Positions 112 through 34,719 of a stretch of 50,812 bases of DNA are shown here, piece by piece (position 1 is the stretch's first letter; every line of letters begins with the position of its first letter). A program made the translations under genes and the position numbers. The notes beneath the pieces are model-generated. The model was not told where the DNA came from and did not search any database. It saw only the letters and a program-made list of their open reading frames with translations. Origin of the DNA: a virus; the IMG/VR virus record IMGVR_UViG_3300046777_002561, positions 1 to 50,812 of that record; one strand, written 5' to 3'.

Positions 112-179
112 TGGTGGAGTGGGCGGGTGTCGAACCCGCGTCCGAAACATGTTTCTGCTTGCTTCATACAACTATATCA
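112..179 (-). ncRNA. ssrA: tmRNA 3' (acceptor) half, possible two-piece tmRNA acceptor RNA
   Basis: On the minus strand the segment ends in an encoded CCA (112-114) and contains a T-arm with stem GCGGG/CCCGC around loop TTCGACA, preceded by TTTCGGAC, the signature of the tmRNA 3' end. The acceptor 3' strand CCACTCC requires a 5' partner GGAGTGG or GGGGTGG. The usual one-piece gene would put that partner about 300 bases further inside ahpD, and none is visible there. A TATAAT box at 186-191 would start a transcript near 179, giving a roughly 68-nt RNA, the size of acceptor pieces from permuted tmRNA genes. The coding piece would then lie beyond the left edge. A non-functional remnant or old attachment site is the alternative. 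Confidence 0.6.
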
Positions 180-217: not shown

Positions 218-733
218 TTACGAATTAAGAACCTTTGAAACTGCTGTAATAACTGAAGCAATTCTTCCAATATCACGAAGTTGTTCTACTGTCATTCCTT
301 CTTTCTTGAGAGTATCATAATGTGCTTTAACGCAGAAATGACACTTACCAACTATGCTTGCAGCCAAACTAAATGCCTCAAATCTTAGTTTAGTTGTTCC
401 ACCGTGGTTAGCAATAGCATTCATGCGAAGTGAAGCTGGTAATCCTTTCAAATTTTCATCACCAGTCATTTCAACATATGGATACCATACATTATTCTGT
501 GCCATAATGCTAGCAGCAGTAAGTGCAGAATTATACTCTGCACCACTATACAGCATTTCAGTCTGGATAAAGGATACCAACTTTCCATTACCTGTAGAAA
601 ATGCTGCCGCCAATGCACAACCCATTGCCACATCACCAGGCAATGAACTACGATTCATTACAGCATCAAGATTTAACTTAATGTCTTTAGCATAATCAGG
701 AATTGCTTCCTTAATTTGATCTACCCAACTCAT
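218..733 (-). CDS. ahpD: AhpD-like alkylhydroperoxidase, partner of AhpC
   Basis: The 171-residue protein matches the AhpD family (carboxymuconolactone decarboxylase fold). Glu119, Cys131, Cys134 and His138 have the same spacing as the catalytic E118, C130, C133 and H137 of Mycobacterium AhpD, in the motif GKCHFCVKAHY. In known systems AhpD's CxxC re-reduces oxidised AhpC, passing electrons from lipoamide. The start is fixed by an ATGA overlap with the upstream 30-residue gene, which itself overlaps ahpC, so the three genes are translationally coupled. It is the last gene before the tmRNA-like element. All key residues are intact, so activity is likely. Such genes are normally bacterial; presence in a T4-like phage suggests acquisition from a host. 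Confidence 0.93.
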   Translation of the reverse strand: MSWVDQIKEAIPDYAKDIKLNLDAVMNRSSLPGDVAMGCALAAAFSTGNGKLVSFIQTEMLYSGAEYNSALTAASIMAQNNVWYPYVEMTGDENLKGLPASLRMNAIANHGGTTKLRFEAFSLAASIVGKCHFCVKAHYDTLKKEGMTVEQLRDIGRIASVITAVSKVLNS

Positions 734-822
734 TCGTCATTATCCTTAAAATATTCAACTAATGTTATTGAAACTATGATAGTTAATAACAAAGATACCG
801 TTATCAACAACCATGGTTCCAT
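730..822 (-). CDS. 30-residue single-span membrane peptide between ahpC and ahpD
   Basis: Translating the ahpC-ahpD gap gives a 30-residue ORF beginning MEPWLLITVS with a hydrophobic span at about residues 4-22 and a charged tail ending KDNDE. Its ATG overlaps the ahpC stop as TAATG and its stop overlaps the ahpD start as ATGA, so spacing and frame are exactly those of a coupled operon gene. I do not recognise a family. The topology suggests an inner-membrane microprotein with the acidic end on one face; it could tether or modulate the peroxidase pair, but that is conjecture. It could also be a mere coupling spacer. Confidence 0.65.
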   Translation of the reverse strand: MEPWLLITVSLLLTIIVSITLVEYFKDNDE

Positions 823-1382
823 TAAAGTGTAGCACCACCTACAGCACGATTACATGCACAAAGTTCGCCAGTTTGTAATGCATCGAGAACACGCAAGGTT
901 TCCTCTGGACTACGACCAACATCTAAGTTATTAACTGTGACATGTTGAATAACATTATTAGGATCAACAATGAAAGTAGCACGCAAGGCAGCTCCTGCTG
1001 ATTCAAAGAAAATACCTAACTGATCAGCAAGGCTTTTTGATACCCAATCATCATTGCGACGTTGTGTATCGGCAAACATCCAGGAATTAGTTTTCTTTAG
1101 ATCTTCGTGAGCATTGCGCCATGCTAGTTTACAGAATTCATTATCTGTACTACCCATGAGTAATACTGCATCACGATCATTAAAATCGTTAACAAGTTTA
1201 TCATATGCAACAATTTCTGTTGGACATACAAAAGTAAAGTCTTTAGGATAAAACATAATAATCTTCCACTTACCAGGGAAGGATGTTTCCGTTAGGTCCT
1301 CAAAGGCACCTTCGGGTGTTAGAGCTCCGGGCTTAACACCAACGATATTGAACGGACTTAATTTATCACCAACAGTTTTCAT
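822..1382 (-). CDS. ahpC: AhpC peroxiredoxin (AhpD-dependent type)
   Basis: The 186-residue thiol peroxidase would reduce H2O2, organic peroxides or peroxynitrite in the cytoplasm. Thr50 and peroxidatic Cys53 sit in the motif FTFVCPTE, and the C-terminus has ELCACN with Cys175 and Cys177. That two-cysteine tail matches mycobacterial AhpC (C61, C174, C176), the class regenerated by AhpD rather than AhpF, and an ahpD lies just downstream. An SD (GGAG) precedes the ATG at 1382. The length is normal for the family. The gene sits in a leftward run between a RecB-like nuclease and ahpD. Annotation is secure; the biological reason for carriage (blunting oxidative stress in the infected host) is inference. 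Confidence 0.96.
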   Translation of the reverse strand: MKTVGDKLSPFNIVGVKPGALTPEGAFEDLTETSFPGKWKIIMFYPKDFTFVCPTEIVAYDKLVNDFNDRDAVLLMGSTDNEFCKLAWRNAHEDLKKTNSWMFADTQRRNDDWVSKSLADQLGIFFESAGAALRATFIVDPNNVIQHVTVNNLDVGRSPEETLRVLDALQTGELCACNRAVGGATL

Positions 1383-1408: not shown

Positions 1409-2068
1409 TTAATAGGAATTATTTTGTTCATACAAATCTCTATAATATAAAAGATCTTTCACCCAATTATCTCTTTTTTCAAAGAAGATCTGAGGTGCAT
1501 CATCTTCTACAGATATCATTATCACTAAGTTTGTTATAGGTCTTTTAGTTCTCTCTTCATACATGATAGCATAAGCAGCACATTGCATAAAGTAGGAATG
1601 TATCCATTCCTTTTTCTTTGCTTTGGAAGCAGTTTTAAAGTCTATAACTGATAACCTTCCATCATATTCTGCAATGCAATCTACCGTTCCTGCTAACCTC
1701 AAATGATCTGAATAAAGAGGTCTTTCCTGAACATGGATATTATCTATGTTTTCTAGGTATGGTTCCAATGAAAAAAATCTATTGAGATCTAAGTTATTTT
1801 CTATCGGCCTATCTTCATTCTTTAAGTATGACTCTATAATAGAATGAATTTTAGTTCCACGTTTAGTAGCAGCTACACTTATTCTATTAGCTTCTTCGTT
1901 ACCTACTCTTTTTCTCCAGGCAACGATTGCATCTTTATTATGTGCAGAAAGAACAGTAGTGACAGACGGGTATTTATTACCCGTTGCTGTCTCATACAAC
2001 CGCTTACTTTCTAGATTTACTTGCTTGATTGAAGGTAGGTCAATATTTACATGATTAAAGTGTTTCAT
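1409..2068 (-). CDS. RecB/Cas4-like PD-(D/E)XK exonuclease
   Basis: The 219-residue protein has the RecB-family nuclease pattern: RGTKIH with His75, Glu115, then Asp130 in AGTVDCIAEY and the Asp143-x-Lys145 pair in VIDFKTASK. These acidic residues and lysine bind Mg2+ and cut DNA in the superfamily. Stand-alone proteins of this size are common in T4-like phages, where they probably serve DNA processing or recombination. It ends a few bases before the ahpC leader. No Cas4 iron-sulphur cysteine cluster is visible, so an exonuclease without the cluster is likelier than a true Cas4. Confidence 0.85.
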   Translation of the reverse strand: MKHFNHVNIDLPSIKQVNLESKRLYETATGNKYPSVTTVLSAHNKDAIVAWRKRVGNEEANRISVAATKRGTKIHSIIESYLKNEDRPIENNLDLNRFFSLEPYLENIDNIHVQERPLYSDHLRLAGTVDCIAEYDGRLSVIDFKTASKAKKKEWIHSYFMQCAAYAIMYEERTKRPITNLVIMISVEDDAPQIFFEKRDNWVKDLLYYRDLYEQNNSY

Positions 2069-3300: not shown

Positions 3301-5331
3301 TTATGAAGTTATTGTTAAATTAAAAGAAGCAGATAATGAAGTAGTAGGACCTTGAACTACAGGTAAATTTTGTCCAGTAGGTTCCTGTAAAGTTACCGTG
3401 CTTGCTGTTGCTTGAATAGTTCCACTAAATCCACCAGTCCTTACTTGAATGATGGATGTTTTTGATCCTTCAAATAAAGAAGATAAGGTTCTTGTAAATG
3501 TTGCTGAATTACTATTTACAGTTATTGCACGTTGAATGCTGCCATCAGCAAAATCAAAAATGGTAGATGTACCACCTTCCGTGATATAGAGTGTAGAACC
3601 ATCAGGTACATTAGTAGTAGTAATAGTAAACGTTACACTTTCGTCATTACTGATAGATGATTCGCTTGCAGAAATTGAAAATGTAGATTCAGGTAAAAAA
3701 AGTGTTTTATTATATCCAAATAAATTAAATCCCTCAGTTCCATTTATTGCGTTTGATTTAGCTATGGATTTAATATATGAAACCATGTCTCCGTGGGACA
3801 TATTCGGTTTTAATTCAAGTATACAAGCTATAACACTAGCCACTACTGGGCAGGCAGCACTAGTTCCTCCGAATGTTGATACTTTATTAGTAGAATTTCT
3901 AGGATCATTATCTACATACCAAGGTGCTGTAGAGACACTATCTAACGTTGCTGATATGGTTTCAGAACCAGGTGCTATAATAGTTATTCCTGGTCCTCTA
4001 GCACTCGATGCAATTAGATATAGATCTGATCCTAGATTTCCCGCTAAAATTGGGTTAGAAGAAGCATATTCACTTCGATTAATATAATAAGTAGTACCAC
4101 CATTAAATACTAAAGTATTGTTAAAATCAGCATGACTACTGTCTACAAGTCTTCTATATGAATTACCTGCTGAAAAAACCATTATTACACCATCATTTAT
4201 AGCATCTGTTATATCGGCATTCTCTGCAGTATTAGCTGTGGCTACTCCTACTTTATAATTCTTAGTTTTGTCTGGGTCACTACCGCCACCACCTCCCAAC
4301 CATACAACTGGTATGACTATATCAGGAAATCCTAAGTCTTGTAGAGTAACGGTGCCGTTCCACCAATTGCTTGATTTATACTCTTCGTATAAATTTTCAG
4401 GTACTCCAGGTTTAAGTGACCATGGGCCATAATATGACGTTCCCCTATAGTTTATTGTAACTGGCCCACCGCCAGATCCCTCGGTATTTAATTCATATAT
4501 TGAAAAAAAGAATTGAGAATTAACACTAGTATGACACACAGATGGTTTAGTTGTTAATAAATCACCATCTAAGTTAATTTTTTTCCAATTATGATATTGA
4601 CGAACGTAATCTAATTTTGTACTATATACAGGGTTATTATTTTGATCATAAGAGACACCAGTTGGTGTACCGTTGATTATTGTTGATTTTCTAGCAAAAC
4701 TATATCTACTTCCTGCTGCTAGACTAGAACATTGTTGAGCGTGATCACTATAGTAATCATTAGCGCTATACACATATAAGTTATTATTAAGGCCATCCCC
4801 TCCGTTTAAACCAAAACCATACCAATTAATTAGATTTAATCTAGAGTTACCAGTTCCATCATAATTTTCAGCCCATTCAACTCCAGTTGGTTGTATTAAA
4901 GCTTCGACGTTTATTACATCAACTCCTTTACCAGAGGTATTTCTTGATACAGTTTCAATTTTAGGCTGAAATAATTGGTAAGGGGTCGGTGTTTCTGAAG
5001 TACAAAACGATAAATGCCAACTTTGCCTGTCAGCAACATCTTGATAAACATTACCAAAATCTCCTGTTACTGACCAACTCGGAGTTATATTTATTTTGGG
5101 TTGTAAATGTGAAGGTATATCAACATCCCAAACTCTGGGATCTTGTTTAATTTGATCAGCTTCTTCTTTAGTTAACAAATAATGAGTATTCCTGCTAATA
5201 GGTCTACGATTAACAACTTCTACAGCACGATCTGGAATAAAAAGATTGCCACCAGGCGTTTCCATATCTTGATAAAAATCATCAAGATCTTCGTGCTTGT
5301 GTAGTGTTACAATATATTCTTTTAGTTCCAT
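3301..5331 (-). CDS. Subtilisin-like (S8) serine protease domain protein, probably virion-associated
   Basis: The 676-residue protein has an S8-fold core at roughly residues 130-545 and a Ser/Thr-rich beta domain after that. With the ATG at 5331, the His motif is DHAQQCSSLAAG (His197), the oxyanion Asn is Asn390 in SAGNS, and the Ser motif is FGGTSAACP (Ser491). The Asp motif (VDVINVEALIQP) has Glu143 where the catalytic Asp normally lies, so activity may be altered or lost. There is no secretion signal. Start 5331 was chosen over in-frame codons at 5343 and 5352 because it follows the stop of the upstream Ig-like gene. Large S8-domain virion proteins are known in T4-like phages of aquatic bacteria; substrate unknown. 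Confidence 0.82.
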   Translation of the reverse strand: MELKEYIVTLHKHEDLDDFYQDMETPGGNLFIPDRAVEVVNRRPISRNTHYLLTKEEADQIKQDPRVWDVDIPSHLQPKINITPSWSVTGDFGNVYQDVADRQSWHLSFCTSETPTPYQLFQPKIETVSRNTSGKGVDVINVEALIQPTGVEWAENYDGTGNSRLNLINWYGFGLNGGDGLNNNLYVYSANDYYSDHAQQCSSLAAGSRYSFARKSTIINGTPTGVSYDQNNNPVYSTKLDYVRQYHNWKKINLDGDLLTTKPSVCHTSVNSQFFFSIYELNTEGSGGGPVTINYRGTSYYGPWSLKPGVPENLYEEYKSSNWWNGTVTLQDLGFPDIVIPVVWLGGGGGSDPDKTKNYKVGVATANTAENADITDAINDGVIMVFSAGNSYRRLVDSSHADFNNTLVFNGGTTYYINRSEYASSNPILAGNLGSDLYLIASSARGPGITIIAPGSETISATLDSVSTAPWYVDNDPRNSTNKVSTFGGTSAACPVVASVIACILELKPNMSHGDMVSYIKSIAKSNAINGTEGFNLFGYNKTLFLPESTFSISASESSISNDESVTFTITTTNVPDGSTLYITEGGTSTIFDFADGSIQRAITVNSNSATFTRTLSSLFEGSKTSIIQVRTGGFSGTIQATASTVTLQEPTGQNLPVVQGPTTSLSASFNLTITS

Positions 5332-5332
5332 A

Positions 5333-5608
5333 TTATTCTTCATTATCCACAACAGTAACAGTAAAGGAAGTAAGCGAAAGTGTGGAACTTGGTGTTCCAG
5401 TTATAAACCCAGTAGAGGTGTTGAAAGATAGTCCAGATGGTAGGGAAGGGGAAATAGAATAGGTAAAATTGCCTGATCCCCCCATTGCTCGAATAGGTTG
5501 AGCACTGACAGACTCACCTACTGAATAGGTGAGATCAGAATTATTGACCACAAGATAAAACCTAGATTGAATTTTTATATTGTGTAAAAGAATATTATGA
5601 ATAAGCAT
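5333..5608 (-). CDS. Small Ig-like (putative Ig/cadherin-type) domain protein
   Basis: The 91-residue protein has the pattern of bacterial putative Ig domains at residues 35-88: SPSLPSGLSFN, then GFITGTPSS and a closing FTVTVVD strand. Such domains decorate phage virions and bind surfaces weakly. It ends immediately before the S8 protein start, so the two are probably co-expressed. A GATAAATA late-promoter-like box lies 28 bases upstream. No good SD is visible at the ATG, so the exact N-terminus is uncertain. Confidence 0.7.
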   Translation of the reverse strand: MLIHNILLHNIKIQSRFYLVVNNSDLTYSVGESVSAQPIRAMGGSGNFTYSISPSLPSGLSFNTSTGFITGTPSSTLSLTSFTVTVVDNEE

Positions 5609-29653: not shown

Positions 29654-29981
29654 GTTTCTTTCTTTCCATCATATCAACAAACAATATTTCTATGTCTGCA
29701 TGCTCACCGAATAATTTCTTAAACGTTTTAAGGACATCTTGAAAGTATGGAGAATCAGGATTGTTTCTTCCAAAGTATACATCATTAAGAATGAGGTCTC
29801 TATACTCTTGTGATGTTTCCTCTAATTGATCCCATTTATTCAATGGACATTTAAATAGAGGAATTACTGCTTTAAGTTTTATAACGCAGCCACATTCAGA
29901 GCACATCTCAATGCCGCCCATCGATTCTACTCTTTTATCGCATGAGCGGCAGGTCTCTAGTCTCTTTGCAATGTAGCTCAA
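29637..29981 (-). CDS. Zinc-binding conserved protein (DUF6171-like)
   Basis: 114 residues with CRSCDKR and MCSECGC in the first 35 residues and C at KCPLNKW, giving a Cys4-type site. Initiates with TTG at 29981, overlapping the NrdB stop as TTGA, with AAGG upstream. The C-terminal part is basic (MMERKKRERK). Function unknown. Confidence 0.75.
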   Translation of the reverse strand: MSYIAKRLETCRSCDKRVESMGGIEMCSECGCVIKLKAVIPLFKCPLNKWDQLEETSQEYRDLILNDVYFGRNNPDSPYFQDVLKTFKKLFGEHADIEILFVDMMERKKRERKS

Positions 29982-30970
29982 GCTACCTTACCCCATACTT
30001 CTTCCCAACTCCCAGATAATGCGCCTTTAGCATAATCGGTTGCTCTGTTTTCAAAAAAGTTAGTATGTGTTGGTGCATTGATCATTTCCTCCACCCAAGG
30101 CAAAGGATTCTTCTTAACCTTCATGATTCCTTTAAGACCCAAGCTAATAAGACGACGGTCAGCAATATAGCGGATATACTGTTTAACGTCACTAGCGTCC
30201 AAGTCAGCCACGCGTACCATGCCAAATGCCAGATCAATAAACTTATCTTCAAGCTCCACCATCTTGGTCGCAATCGTGTAAATCTTTCCTTTAAGTTCAT
30301 CGTTCCAGATTTCCCTATTTTCTTCTATATAGGTTCTGAATAATTTAATCATGCTTTCAGCGTGCATCGTCTCATCAACAATAGACCATGTTACGATTTG
30401 ACCCATTCCCTTCATCTTTCCATGTCTTGGAAAGTTAAGTAGCATAATAAAGGAACTGAATAGTTGCATCCCTTCAGTAAATGCACTGAATGCAGCAATA
30501 TGTTCAGCTGTTGATTCTTTAGTACTATTTCTAGAACTTAAATCTAAAAGATAGTCATGCTTTTCTCTCATTTCACCATATTGAAGGAATTCATTGTATG
30601 TTGTTTCTGGCATTCCTAATGATTCAATAAGATGTGAGTATGCTGCAATATGCAATGCTTCTCTTGCAGCAAATCCAGCTAACATCATTCTAATTTCTGG
30701 TTGTGGAAAATACGGTAAGTAGTTCTTTACATAACCACCAGCTACATCAATATCACCTTGTGTGAAGAATCTAAAGATATGAGTTAAGAACTTTTGTTCA
30801 TCTTCTGTTAGTTTGTTTTTCCAATCCTTAACATCCTCTAACATAGGGACTTCAGTATGTAACCAATGGGCTTGCTCATGCTTTAGCCAAGCCTCATATG
30901 CCCAAGGATAGTTAAATGGTTTGTAGTATGTTCTGTCTTCTAGTAAGTTTGTTTTTGTTTTTTTAATCAT
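29978..30970 (-). CDS. nrdB: Ribonucleotide reductase class I beta subunit
   Basis: The 330-residue diiron radical subunit. Ligands by family pattern: Asp73, Glu104 and His107 (EALHIAAY), Glu166 (FTEGMQLF), Glu200 and His203 (DETMHAE); radical Tyr111 is present, so a tyrosyl-radical class Ia-type enzyme. Pairs with NrdA at 32917. Thioredoxin lies immediately upstream in the same operon and would re-reduce NrdA. Confidence 0.96.
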   Translation of the reverse strand: MIKKTKTNLLEDRTYYKPFNYPWAYEAWLKHEQAHWLHTEVPMLEDVKDWKNKLTEDEQKFLTHIFRFFTQGDIDVAGGYVKNYLPYFPQPEIRMMLAGFAAREALHIAAYSHLIESLGMPETTYNEFLQYGEMREKHDYLLDLSSRNSTKESTAEHIAAFSAFTEGMQLFSSFIMLLNFPRHGKMKGMGQIVTWSIVDETMHAESMIKLFRTYIEENREIWNDELKGKIYTIATKMVELEDKFIDLAFGMVRVADLDASDVKQYIRYIADRRLISLGLKGIMKVKKNPLPWVEEMINAPTHTNFFENRATDYAKGALSGSWEEVWGKVA

Positions 30971-31214
30971 TTGCGATAAACTTTAAAAATTCTTTTTCCT
31001 TTAATACGCCTGTATGTCTCTTAACTTCACCGTTTTCATCTACTATGATCATAGTAGGCACCGATGTTACTTTCCAACTTTTAACTAAGTCAAACTTCTC
31101 ATCAATATCTACTTCTTCGATCTCGATGTTAACACGCTCACCTAAGTTCTTTATTATACTTGATTGTGTTTTGCAGGGGCCACACCATTCCCCATAAAAT
31201 TTAAGTAGTTTCAT
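30963..31214 (-). CDS. Small thioredoxin/glutaredoxin
   Basis: 83 residues with the active site WCGPC at residues 10-14 and cis-Pro region SVPTMIIV near residue 53. Short thioredoxin fold; likely the electron donor for the phage ribonucleotide reductase because it is co-transcribed with nrdB. Overlaps its neighbours by 8-14 bases. Confidence 0.93.
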   Translation of the reverse strand: MKLLKFYGEWCGPCKTQSSIIKNLGERVNIEIEEVDIDEKFDLVKSWKVTSVPTMIIVDENGEVKRHTGVLKEKEFLKFIAND

Positions 31215-32916: not shown

Positions 32917-34719
32917 TTAACCCTCACAAGCTAAACAAACATCATCACTTTGTGCTAATTGTTTTAAATCTATTTCTTCGATCACTTGACGTTCTATTTT
33001 CTTAGAGACTTTATCAGCCTTCGAAATCTTTTCGCTGCGGCAGTAGTATAACGTTTTGAGTCTTTGCTTCCATGCCATAAAATGGACTGCATGGATGTAT
33101 TTGACACTTGAGTCAGGCCTGAAAAAGAGATTAACACTCTGCGCTTGGTCAATATAGGATTGGCGATCAGCGGCATGCTGTACAATCCATCTTTGGTCAA
33201 TTTCCATCGAAGTCTTAAACACTTCTTTGGTCCATTCATCGAGTATTTCCAGATGCTGAACGCTGCCATCGTTGGCGATAATACTCGACCAGATTTCGTT
33301 ATAGTCCAACTTAGAATCGGCATCACATTTTTCCTTTATAATAATATCTAACCACTTATTCTTATTCAGAAAAGCACCTGAAAGAGTGTCTTGTCTATAA
33401 GCATTAGCACGATAAGGCTCAATGGAGGGACTAGTATTGCCCATAATAATGGAACTTGAAGCATTAGGAGCAATGGCAAGCATGTGGCTAAAACGCTTAC
33501 CTGTACCTGCAGCATCAGGAGCCTCGCCTCTTTCTTTTCCGAGTTCGATATTTGCATGATCTAATCCTTCACGGATATGTTTAAACATCTGTTTATTTTT
33601 GCTTACAGCCAGCGCTGATTCAAACGGGACTTGTACTTTTTGGAGGTAAGCATGAAAACCGAGAGCGCCAATACCAATAGACCGTTCGCGCATAGCTGAA
33701 TACTTTGCTCTTGATACGCTATCAGGAGCATGATCAATGAAATACTGAAGAACGTTATCAAGCATTTCTGCAACGTCCCGAAGAAATAGTTTATTATTTT
33801 TCCAATCATCATAATATTCTAAATTAACAGACGATAGGCAACATACTGCTGTTCTTTGTTTGTCAGTAGGTAAAATAATCTCACTACACAAGTTGCTTTG
33901 TTTGATACTTAAACCAAGTTTCTTCTGAAACTCTGGCATTGCATTATTGCTAGTATCGATAAAATGCAAATAAGGTTCACCAGTTTGCATTCTAAGTTCT
34001 AAGATACGTTGCCAAAGTTCTCTAGCTGAGATTGTTTCTCTTACTTCACCATTATGTGGATCCTTCAACTCCCAAGTATCATCAGCAGATGGATCAATCA
34101 TACACCTTTCAATGATATGCATGAAATCATCAGTAATATTAATACCGTGATGTAGATTTAAAGCACGCATGTTAGGATCGCCTGTTGGCTTTCTCATATC
34201 TAGAAATAAGAGAATATCAGGATGAGAGATATTAAGGTATGCAGCATAAGAACCACGACGAGTCCTACCTTGTCTATAAGCGAGAGATGATGCGTCATAT
34301 GTGCGAAGATGGGGCATCACTCCAACAGACTTATCGTCAGCAGAACGTATACCGATTCCAATTCCTACTCCTCCACCGAGCATTGAGAGCCAGTTGACTT
34401 CTGATAAAGTGCTGACCAAACCTTCAGCACTGTCATCCAAATAAGGCAAAAAACAACTGATAGGCAAACCACGCTTACTTCGTCCAAATGAAAGTATCGG
34501 TGTGCTATAACTAAGCCAATGCATGCTGCTATAATCGTAAAGACGCTGAGCGTGCTCATTATTAGATCCAAACGCTGCTGAGACATATGCAAACCTTTCT
34601 TGAGGAGAAGCTTCACCTTCCATCATGTATGATTCTTGCAACCTTTTAACACCCAATTCATCGAACAAATTATCTCGAGAATAGTCTACCTTAATGCCAT
34701 GGACAATTCCAGGGGTCAT
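32917..34719 (-). CDS. nrdA: Ribonucleotide reductase class I alpha subunit
   Basis: 600 residues: catalytic Cys89 (ISCFLPYLDDS), radical-site triad Asn276, Cys278, Glu280 (NLCSEI), Cys293/294 partner, radical-transfer Tyr558-Tyr559 (LYYCR), and C-terminal redox pair CLACEG. Shorter than E. coli NrdA (761) because the N-terminal ATP-cone is absent, so dATP feedback inhibition should be missing. Partner of NrdB, reduced by the thioredoxin. SD not strong. Confidence 0.96.
   Translation of the reverse strand: MTPGIVHGIKVDYSRDNLFDELGVKRLQESYMMEGEASPQERFAYVSAAFGSNNEHAQRLYDYSSMHWLSYSTPILSFGRSKRGLPISCFLPYLDDSAEGLVSTLSEVNWLSMLGGGVGIGIGIRSADDKSVGVMPHLRTYDASSLAYRQGRTRRGSYAAYLNISHPDILLFLDMRKPTGDPNMRALNLHHGINITDDFMHIIERCMIDPSADDTWELKDPHNGEVRETISARELWQRILELRMQTGEPYLHFIDTSNNAMPEFQKKLGLSIKQSNLCSEIILPTDKQRTAVCCLSSVNLEYYDDWKNNKLFLRDVAEMLDNVLQYFIDHAPDSVSRAKYSAMRERSIGIGALGFHAYLQKVQVPFESALAVSKNKQMFKHIREGLDHANIELGKERGEAPDAAGTGKRFSHMLAIAPNASSSIIMGNTSPSIEPYRANAYRQDTLSGAFLNKNKWLDIIIKEKCDADSKLDYNEIWSSIIANDGSVQHLEILDEWTKEVFKTSMEIDQRWIVQHAADRQSYIDQAQSVNLFFRPDSSVKYIHAVHFMAWKQRLKTLYYCRSEKISKADKVSKKIERQVIEEIDLKQLAQSDDVCLACEG

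Follow-up and report, generated by a model that had tools for sequence, protein, structure and literature searches.

An AhpC-AhpD peroxide reductase gene pair of likely Burkholderiales origin in uncultured phages

The closest characterised counterpart of the phage gene pair described here comes from Burkholderiales. In Burkholderia thailandensis, AhpC combines the peroxidatic Cys57 with the resolving Cys171/173, and AhpD serves as its donor via Cys131/134 (PMC6626918). It was shown biochemically that NADH electrons reach this AhpD/AhpC pair via Lpd and SucB, with thioredoxin as a weaker alternative (PMC6626918). The best solved relatives are AhpC (2bmx) and AhpD (1gu9, 1knc) of Mycobacterium tuberculosis, which show the same catalytic residues. 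The AhpF-dependent AhpC of the E. coli type (TIGR03137) belongs to the same peroxiredoxin superfamily and shares the peroxidatic motif. With regard to viruses, single peroxidase genes have reportedly been observed in phages, e.g., the peroxidase of the Liberibacter prophage SC2, which is likewise a virus-borne antioxidant gene. To our knowledge, none of these single peroxidases is part of an AhpC-AhpD pair.

We studied a window of 50,812 nt, i.e., the whole stretch from position 1 to 50,812 of the IMG/VR virus record IMGVR_UViG_3300046777_002561. An initial annotation, made from the sequence alone, had claimed an intact ahpC and ahpD at positions 218-1382. Both minus-strand ORFs are confirmed and all seven residues named there are in place (Table 1). 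The ahpC ORF is matched by the Pfam families AhpC-TSA and Redoxin (PF00578 with 76.7 bits vs. a cut-off of 26), and the top PDB relative of its product is the M. tuberculosis AhpC (2bmx, E 1e-40). The peroxidatic Cys53 is embedded in the motif PKDFTFVCPTE and accompanied by Thr50 and Arg134, while Cys175 and Cys177 are the resolving cysteines, i.e., a CxC arrangement as in M. tuberculosis and B. thailandensis. These five residues are invariant in 148 viral homologues from the best-matching loci. When compared to the NCBIfam model of AhpF-dependent AhpC (TIGR03137), the protein scores 107.9 bits and thus stays under the curated cut-off of 272; in contrast to the E. coli type, its partner is AhpD. 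That is, the protein shows the domain, the TxxC/Arg site, the CxC and the adjacent ahpD that characterise AhpD-dependent 2-Cys peroxiredoxins, and we assign it to this type based on these features. Since the AlphaFold model of AhpC is of low confidence (pLDDT 57) and was left out of use, its fold rests on sequence. Beside this, we observe that the loop following FADTxR (about residues 107-118 in the window) is highly variable in length and sequence among the phage AhpC proteins; it is short in loci L007, L014 and L158 and far longer in L084 and L113.

The ahpD ORF is matched by Pfam CMD (PF02627) with 35.5 bits (cut-off 23) and by the AhpD core domain model TIGR00778 with 28.3 (cut-off 27.8). 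The NCBIfam model TIGR00777 yields 124.5 bits over the full length, which is under its curated cut-off of 191.95, but is matched at E <= 0.001 by all 28 phage AhpD members. Judged by these profile matches, phage AhpD is related to the curated TIGR00777 subfamily over its full length but has diverged from it. The catalytic set consists of Glu119, Cys131-x-x-Cys134 and His138 and is invariant in 146 viral homologues from the best-matching loci, a set that reaches down to about 50% AhpD identity. The top PDB relatives are M. tuberculosis AhpD structures (1gu9/1knc, E 5e-23). This is also reflected in the AlphaFold model (pLDDT 90.5), which predicts the all-helical AhpD fold with TM-scores of 0.83-0.87 to M. 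tuberculosis AhpD chains, although the structural alignment shows no more than about 36% identity between the two proteins and the M. tuberculosis genes reside on a bacterial chromosome. Pfam, NCBIfam and PDB searches as well as the residues all support what had been proposed from the sequence, i.e., that a phage contig encodes an AhpD-dependent AhpC together with the matching AhpD. Since every catalytic residue is invariant in 146-148 viral homologues, chance is excluded and the status of a decaying passenger is unlikely.

Table 1. Features of the window discussed in the text.
Feature	Position	Strand	Evidence or remark
Acceptor piece (T-arm plus CCA) of a circularly permuted tmRNA	112..173	-	directly 3' of ahpD
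ahpD, AhpC reductase, 171 aa	218..733	-	intact ORF, Pfam PF02627, nearest PDB 1gu9, model
Hydrophobic ORF, 30 aa, MEPWLLITVSLLLTIIVSITLVEYFKDNDE	730..822	-	translation; bridges ahpC and ahpD
ahpC, 2-Cys peroxiredoxin, 186 aa	822..1382	-	intact ORF, Pfam PF00578, nearest PDB 2bmx
PHROG 298 exonuclease, upstream neighbour of ahpC	1409..2068	-	PHROG match
nrdB	29978-30970		beside the phage thioredoxin
Thioredoxin, 83 aa, WCGPC motif	30963..31214	-	PF00085; abuts nrdB
nrdA	32917-34719		class Ia RNR with nrdB

The two genes had also been described as a coupled operon, and the gene arrangement agrees with this. Within the window, ahpC and ahpD are 88 nt apart on the same strand and the gap is bridged by the 30-aa ORF, which begins within the overlap TAATG at the ahpC stop and terminates within the overlap ATGA at the ahpD start. 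In L002 and L003, the closest relatives, the two genes themselves overlap. The bridging ORF may form a single membrane helix; since no homologue of it was found in the fetched loci, we consider it a putative gene only. All 147 resolved viral pairs of the best-matching loci are encoded on one strand with ahpC ahead of ahpD, 145 of them within 2 kb, and overlapping stop/start codons (-1 or -4) are found in 66/147. Compared to these often overlapping or tightly coupled phage genes, the gaps in the inspected Burkholderiales operons are longer, and many of them contain a hairpin-like stretch when read by eye. Upstream of ahpC, the exonuclease gene of the window follows the same direction at a distance of about 26 nt, and in 20 other loci an exonuclease-like gene precedes ahpC at a distance of about 1 kb. 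Scans for the T4 late-promoter motif TATAAATA and for sigma-70 promoters provided matches no more common than expected by chance.

A different micro-ORF is conserved elsewhere. Just upstream of ahpD, 11 loci (L029, L038, L041, L043, L080, L087, L094, L134, L136, L145, L155) encode a peptide of 22-31 aa (e.g., MSFQEQFEYLKRWHCPSCNTQGDNK) that contains the motif CP[S/T]C, the stop of which is found at the ahpD start or a few bases from it. The micro-protein is possibly redox-active or metal-binding.

The phage pair resembles the Burkholderiales AhpC-AhpD system in the three AhpC cysteines, the AhpD CxxC and the gene order, and every catalytic cysteine known from the B. thailandensis pair is retained. 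By analogy, we hold with good confidence that ahpC-ahpD encodes a functional, phage-owned peroxide reductase of the Burkholderiales type, i.e., an auxiliary metabolic system that is fed by the lipoyl E2/Lpd/NADH chain of the host. It would thus probably remove peroxides in the infected cell via host lipoamide and NADH. Here, AhpC Cys53 would reduce H2O2 and organic peroxides, and perhaps peroxynitrite as well; Cys175/Cys177 would then resolve the sulfenic acid formed in this step. AhpC would be re-reduced by Cys131/Cys134 of AhpD, where Glu119 and His138 would relay protons. AhpD in turn would be re-reduced by the host via a SucB-type lipoyl E2 protein, Lpd and NADH, an electron route that we infer from the characterised Burkholderia pair. 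On this scheme, the phage contributes the two terminal enzymes only and would tap NADH from the host.

The initial annotation had called this peroxide-reduction branch self-sufficient, which does not agree with our screen: since a search of 18 phage records, which may be incomplete, revealed neither an Lpd-type domain nor a lipoyl domain, the electrons are probably supplied by the host. Because the pair would depend on host lipoamide/NADH, phage fitness would be tied to host TCA-cycle enzymes, and this dependence is directly testable with the known in vitro assay. With regard to the benefit, peroxide levels would be kept low once host gene expression is shut off, such that phage DNA synthesis would be guarded, with the phage class Ia ribonucleotide reductase (RNR) among the things protected. 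Both the expression of the phage genes and their benefit to replication, and to RNR in particular, are presumed here. In cyanophage-infected Synechococcus, host ahpC rises (PMC5931967), which suggests a demand for peroxide removal during infection. The window's own thioredoxin beside nrdB may act as an alternative or second reductant. This thioredoxin has few relatives in the phage collection (35-38% identity).

The same thiol chemistry could serve another end, i.e., the pair might be a thiol-redox unit with a main role other than peroxide removal, using electrons of host lipoyl dehydrogenase complexes to alter central metabolism or to keep phage thiol enzymes of the RNR type reduced. In the known system, lipoyl E2 proteins indeed act as electron donors of AhpD (PMC6626918), and the window encodes both a class Ia RNR and a thioredoxin adjoining nrdB. 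We nevertheless regard this as unlikely, given that the full AhpC peroxidase site (Thr50, Cys53, Arg134) is invariant in the 148 homologues and that the two genes are retained together, neither of which would be needed if AhpD served as a reductase alone. Still less probable is a counter-defence role, in which the pair would neutralise peroxide or nitrosative bursts from host defence in infection: H2O2, organic peroxides and peroxynitrite are all substrates of the characterised Burkholderia homologue (PMC6626918), but among the common flanking families no defence or counter-defence neighbours were recognised. A peroxide reductase fed by the host remains our preferred reading of the pair.

To trace the donor, as the initial annotation had proposed, we compared the phage proteins with bacterial ones. 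The nearest bacterial sequences found are Burkholderiales ahpC-ahpD operons, with identities of 62–69% for AhpC and 56–61% for AhpD; this bacterial sample is biased towards close relatives since it was drawn with phage-derived peptide patterns. Among 249 evenly sampled Pseudomonadota genomes, a full-length AhpD match was obtained for 12, and the match in Burkholderiales is far stronger than all others. In the phylogenies, phage AhpC forms a single clade (support 99/94), while phage AhpD splits into two supported clades inside the Burkholderiales AhpD group (100/100), the union of which is weakly supported (70/35). Given the nearest operons and this clade pattern, ahpC-ahpD was likely captured from Burkholderiales, once or a few times. 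The capture from Burkholderia-type bacteria would have happened long ago, with the pair now common to hundreds of uncultured phages. It differs from the Burkholderiales operons by its low GC content, the variable AhpC insert after FADTxR and its phage-specific clades. A more far-reaching reading, which we offer as speculative and doubtful, is that this phage-specific lineage, after one or a few captures, spread in diverse large uncultured phages and forms a general infection-time redox module on host lipoamide/NADH, with the conserved CPxC micro-protein (22-31 aa) directly upstream of ahpD added in some lineages as a redox adaptor.

The pair is located at the contig end, adjacent to a tmRNA piece, which scores 24 bits for RF04321 (below the gathering score) and matches RF00023 with E 2e-6. 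The tmRNA coding piece is absent from the window, probably because it lies beyond the contig end. Complete permuted tmRNAs are found at the same place in L002 (2539-2936), L003 (2348-2745) and L082 (1486-1883) as well as in L083 (2382-2771). The complete tmRNAs of close relatives encode the tags ANDDYFYQDLKLAA or ANDEVYALAA and are of the betaproteobacterial type, and a permuted tmRNA is located near the pair in 13 further ahpCD carrier loci. Their type is consistent with betaproteobacterial hosts of the carriers. Genes for tmRNAs are a common integration target. Because only the 3' part is present, we also considered the piece as an attachment site; this is not preferred since the permuted tmRNA of close relatives is complete at the same place. 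Two-piece tmRNAs of aquatic myophages are also represented by phage Melnitz, the tmRNA of which is alphaproteobacterial in type, while those near ahpCD match the betaproteobacterial model (PMC9004378 for Melnitz).

The search for viral ahpC and ahpD that had been suggested initially identified relatives of each protein in at least 597 IMG/VR contigs. Both genes are present in 148/158 best-matching loci. AhpD is encoded in 72 of the 80 best AhpC loci and AhpC in 78 of the 80 best AhpD loci. Furthermore, AhpC is encoded by all of 17 further carrier records of 92–343 kb (gp23 in 5, terminase in 8), and the pair is also found in the interior of phage records of this size. Its GC content (37.8%) equals that of the window (37.7%). 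The window itself encodes PHROG-matched exonuclease, endolysin, PhoH, ligase, primase, RNR, thymidylate synthase and head genes. Its assignment as T4-like is plausible: the primase is closest to its gp61 counterparts in T4-like cyanophages and Melnitz, and RNR, PhoH and further phage genes are present, but gp23, sheath and terminase are without match in the 50.8-kb record. We thus class ahpC-ahpD, from these comparisons, as auxiliary metabolic genes, i.e., as apparently host-derived and stably kept in genuine phage genomes. An origin of the segment from host DNA or a chimeric contig edge, as cautioned initially, or its status as a decayed passenger is largely refuted and hardly credible. The position at the contig end with its partial tmRNA would favour such a reading, but the following argues against it: the same pair is found on hundreds of viral contigs including the interior of many large ones, several with gp23 or terminase, its proteins form their own clades with invariant residues, its GC content is phage-like and relatives hold a complete tmRNA at the same spot.

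We also screened for earlier reports of the pair. AhpD is absent from 50,697 phage records at a tblastn threshold of E 1e-5, and another query, a more diverged AhpD of phage origin, gave no match at E 1e-2 either. AhpC-like matches in this phage collection are about 35% identical. The sole one inspected, in 'Microcystis phage MaAM05' (MW495066.1, L251), is located in a region that looks like a bacterial chromosome (rplA, rplK, nusG, secE). In agreement with the initial annotation, which knew of no well-described phage AhpCD system, a full-text search of 5.39 million papers provided no description of a phage AhpC-AhpD pair; prior mention is possible since the search covered few subscription journals and preprints and no AMG tables in supplements. 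The enzymes themselves are well known, while the widespread phage gene pair is apparently undescribed. A pair absent from the searched phage collection is kept by hundreds of uncultured phages, and its spread suggests that phages of betaproteobacteria-like hosts are under real selection from oxidative stress while they infect.

Some further observations concern the surroundings of the pair. One contig of a Bacteroidota MAG (L161) carries ahpCD of the phage type; it probably stems from a phage and was misbinned. At 3301-5608 (-) of the window, an ORF for a subtilase-family protease (683 aa) is preceded by a putative Ig-domain ORF, which is unusual phage cargo. Finally, tRNAs with a CTA anticodon (tRNA-Pyl according to ARAGORN) are located near ahpCD in L010, L017, L021, L027, L029, L049, L101 and L136; these are probable amber suppressor tRNAs of recoding phages.
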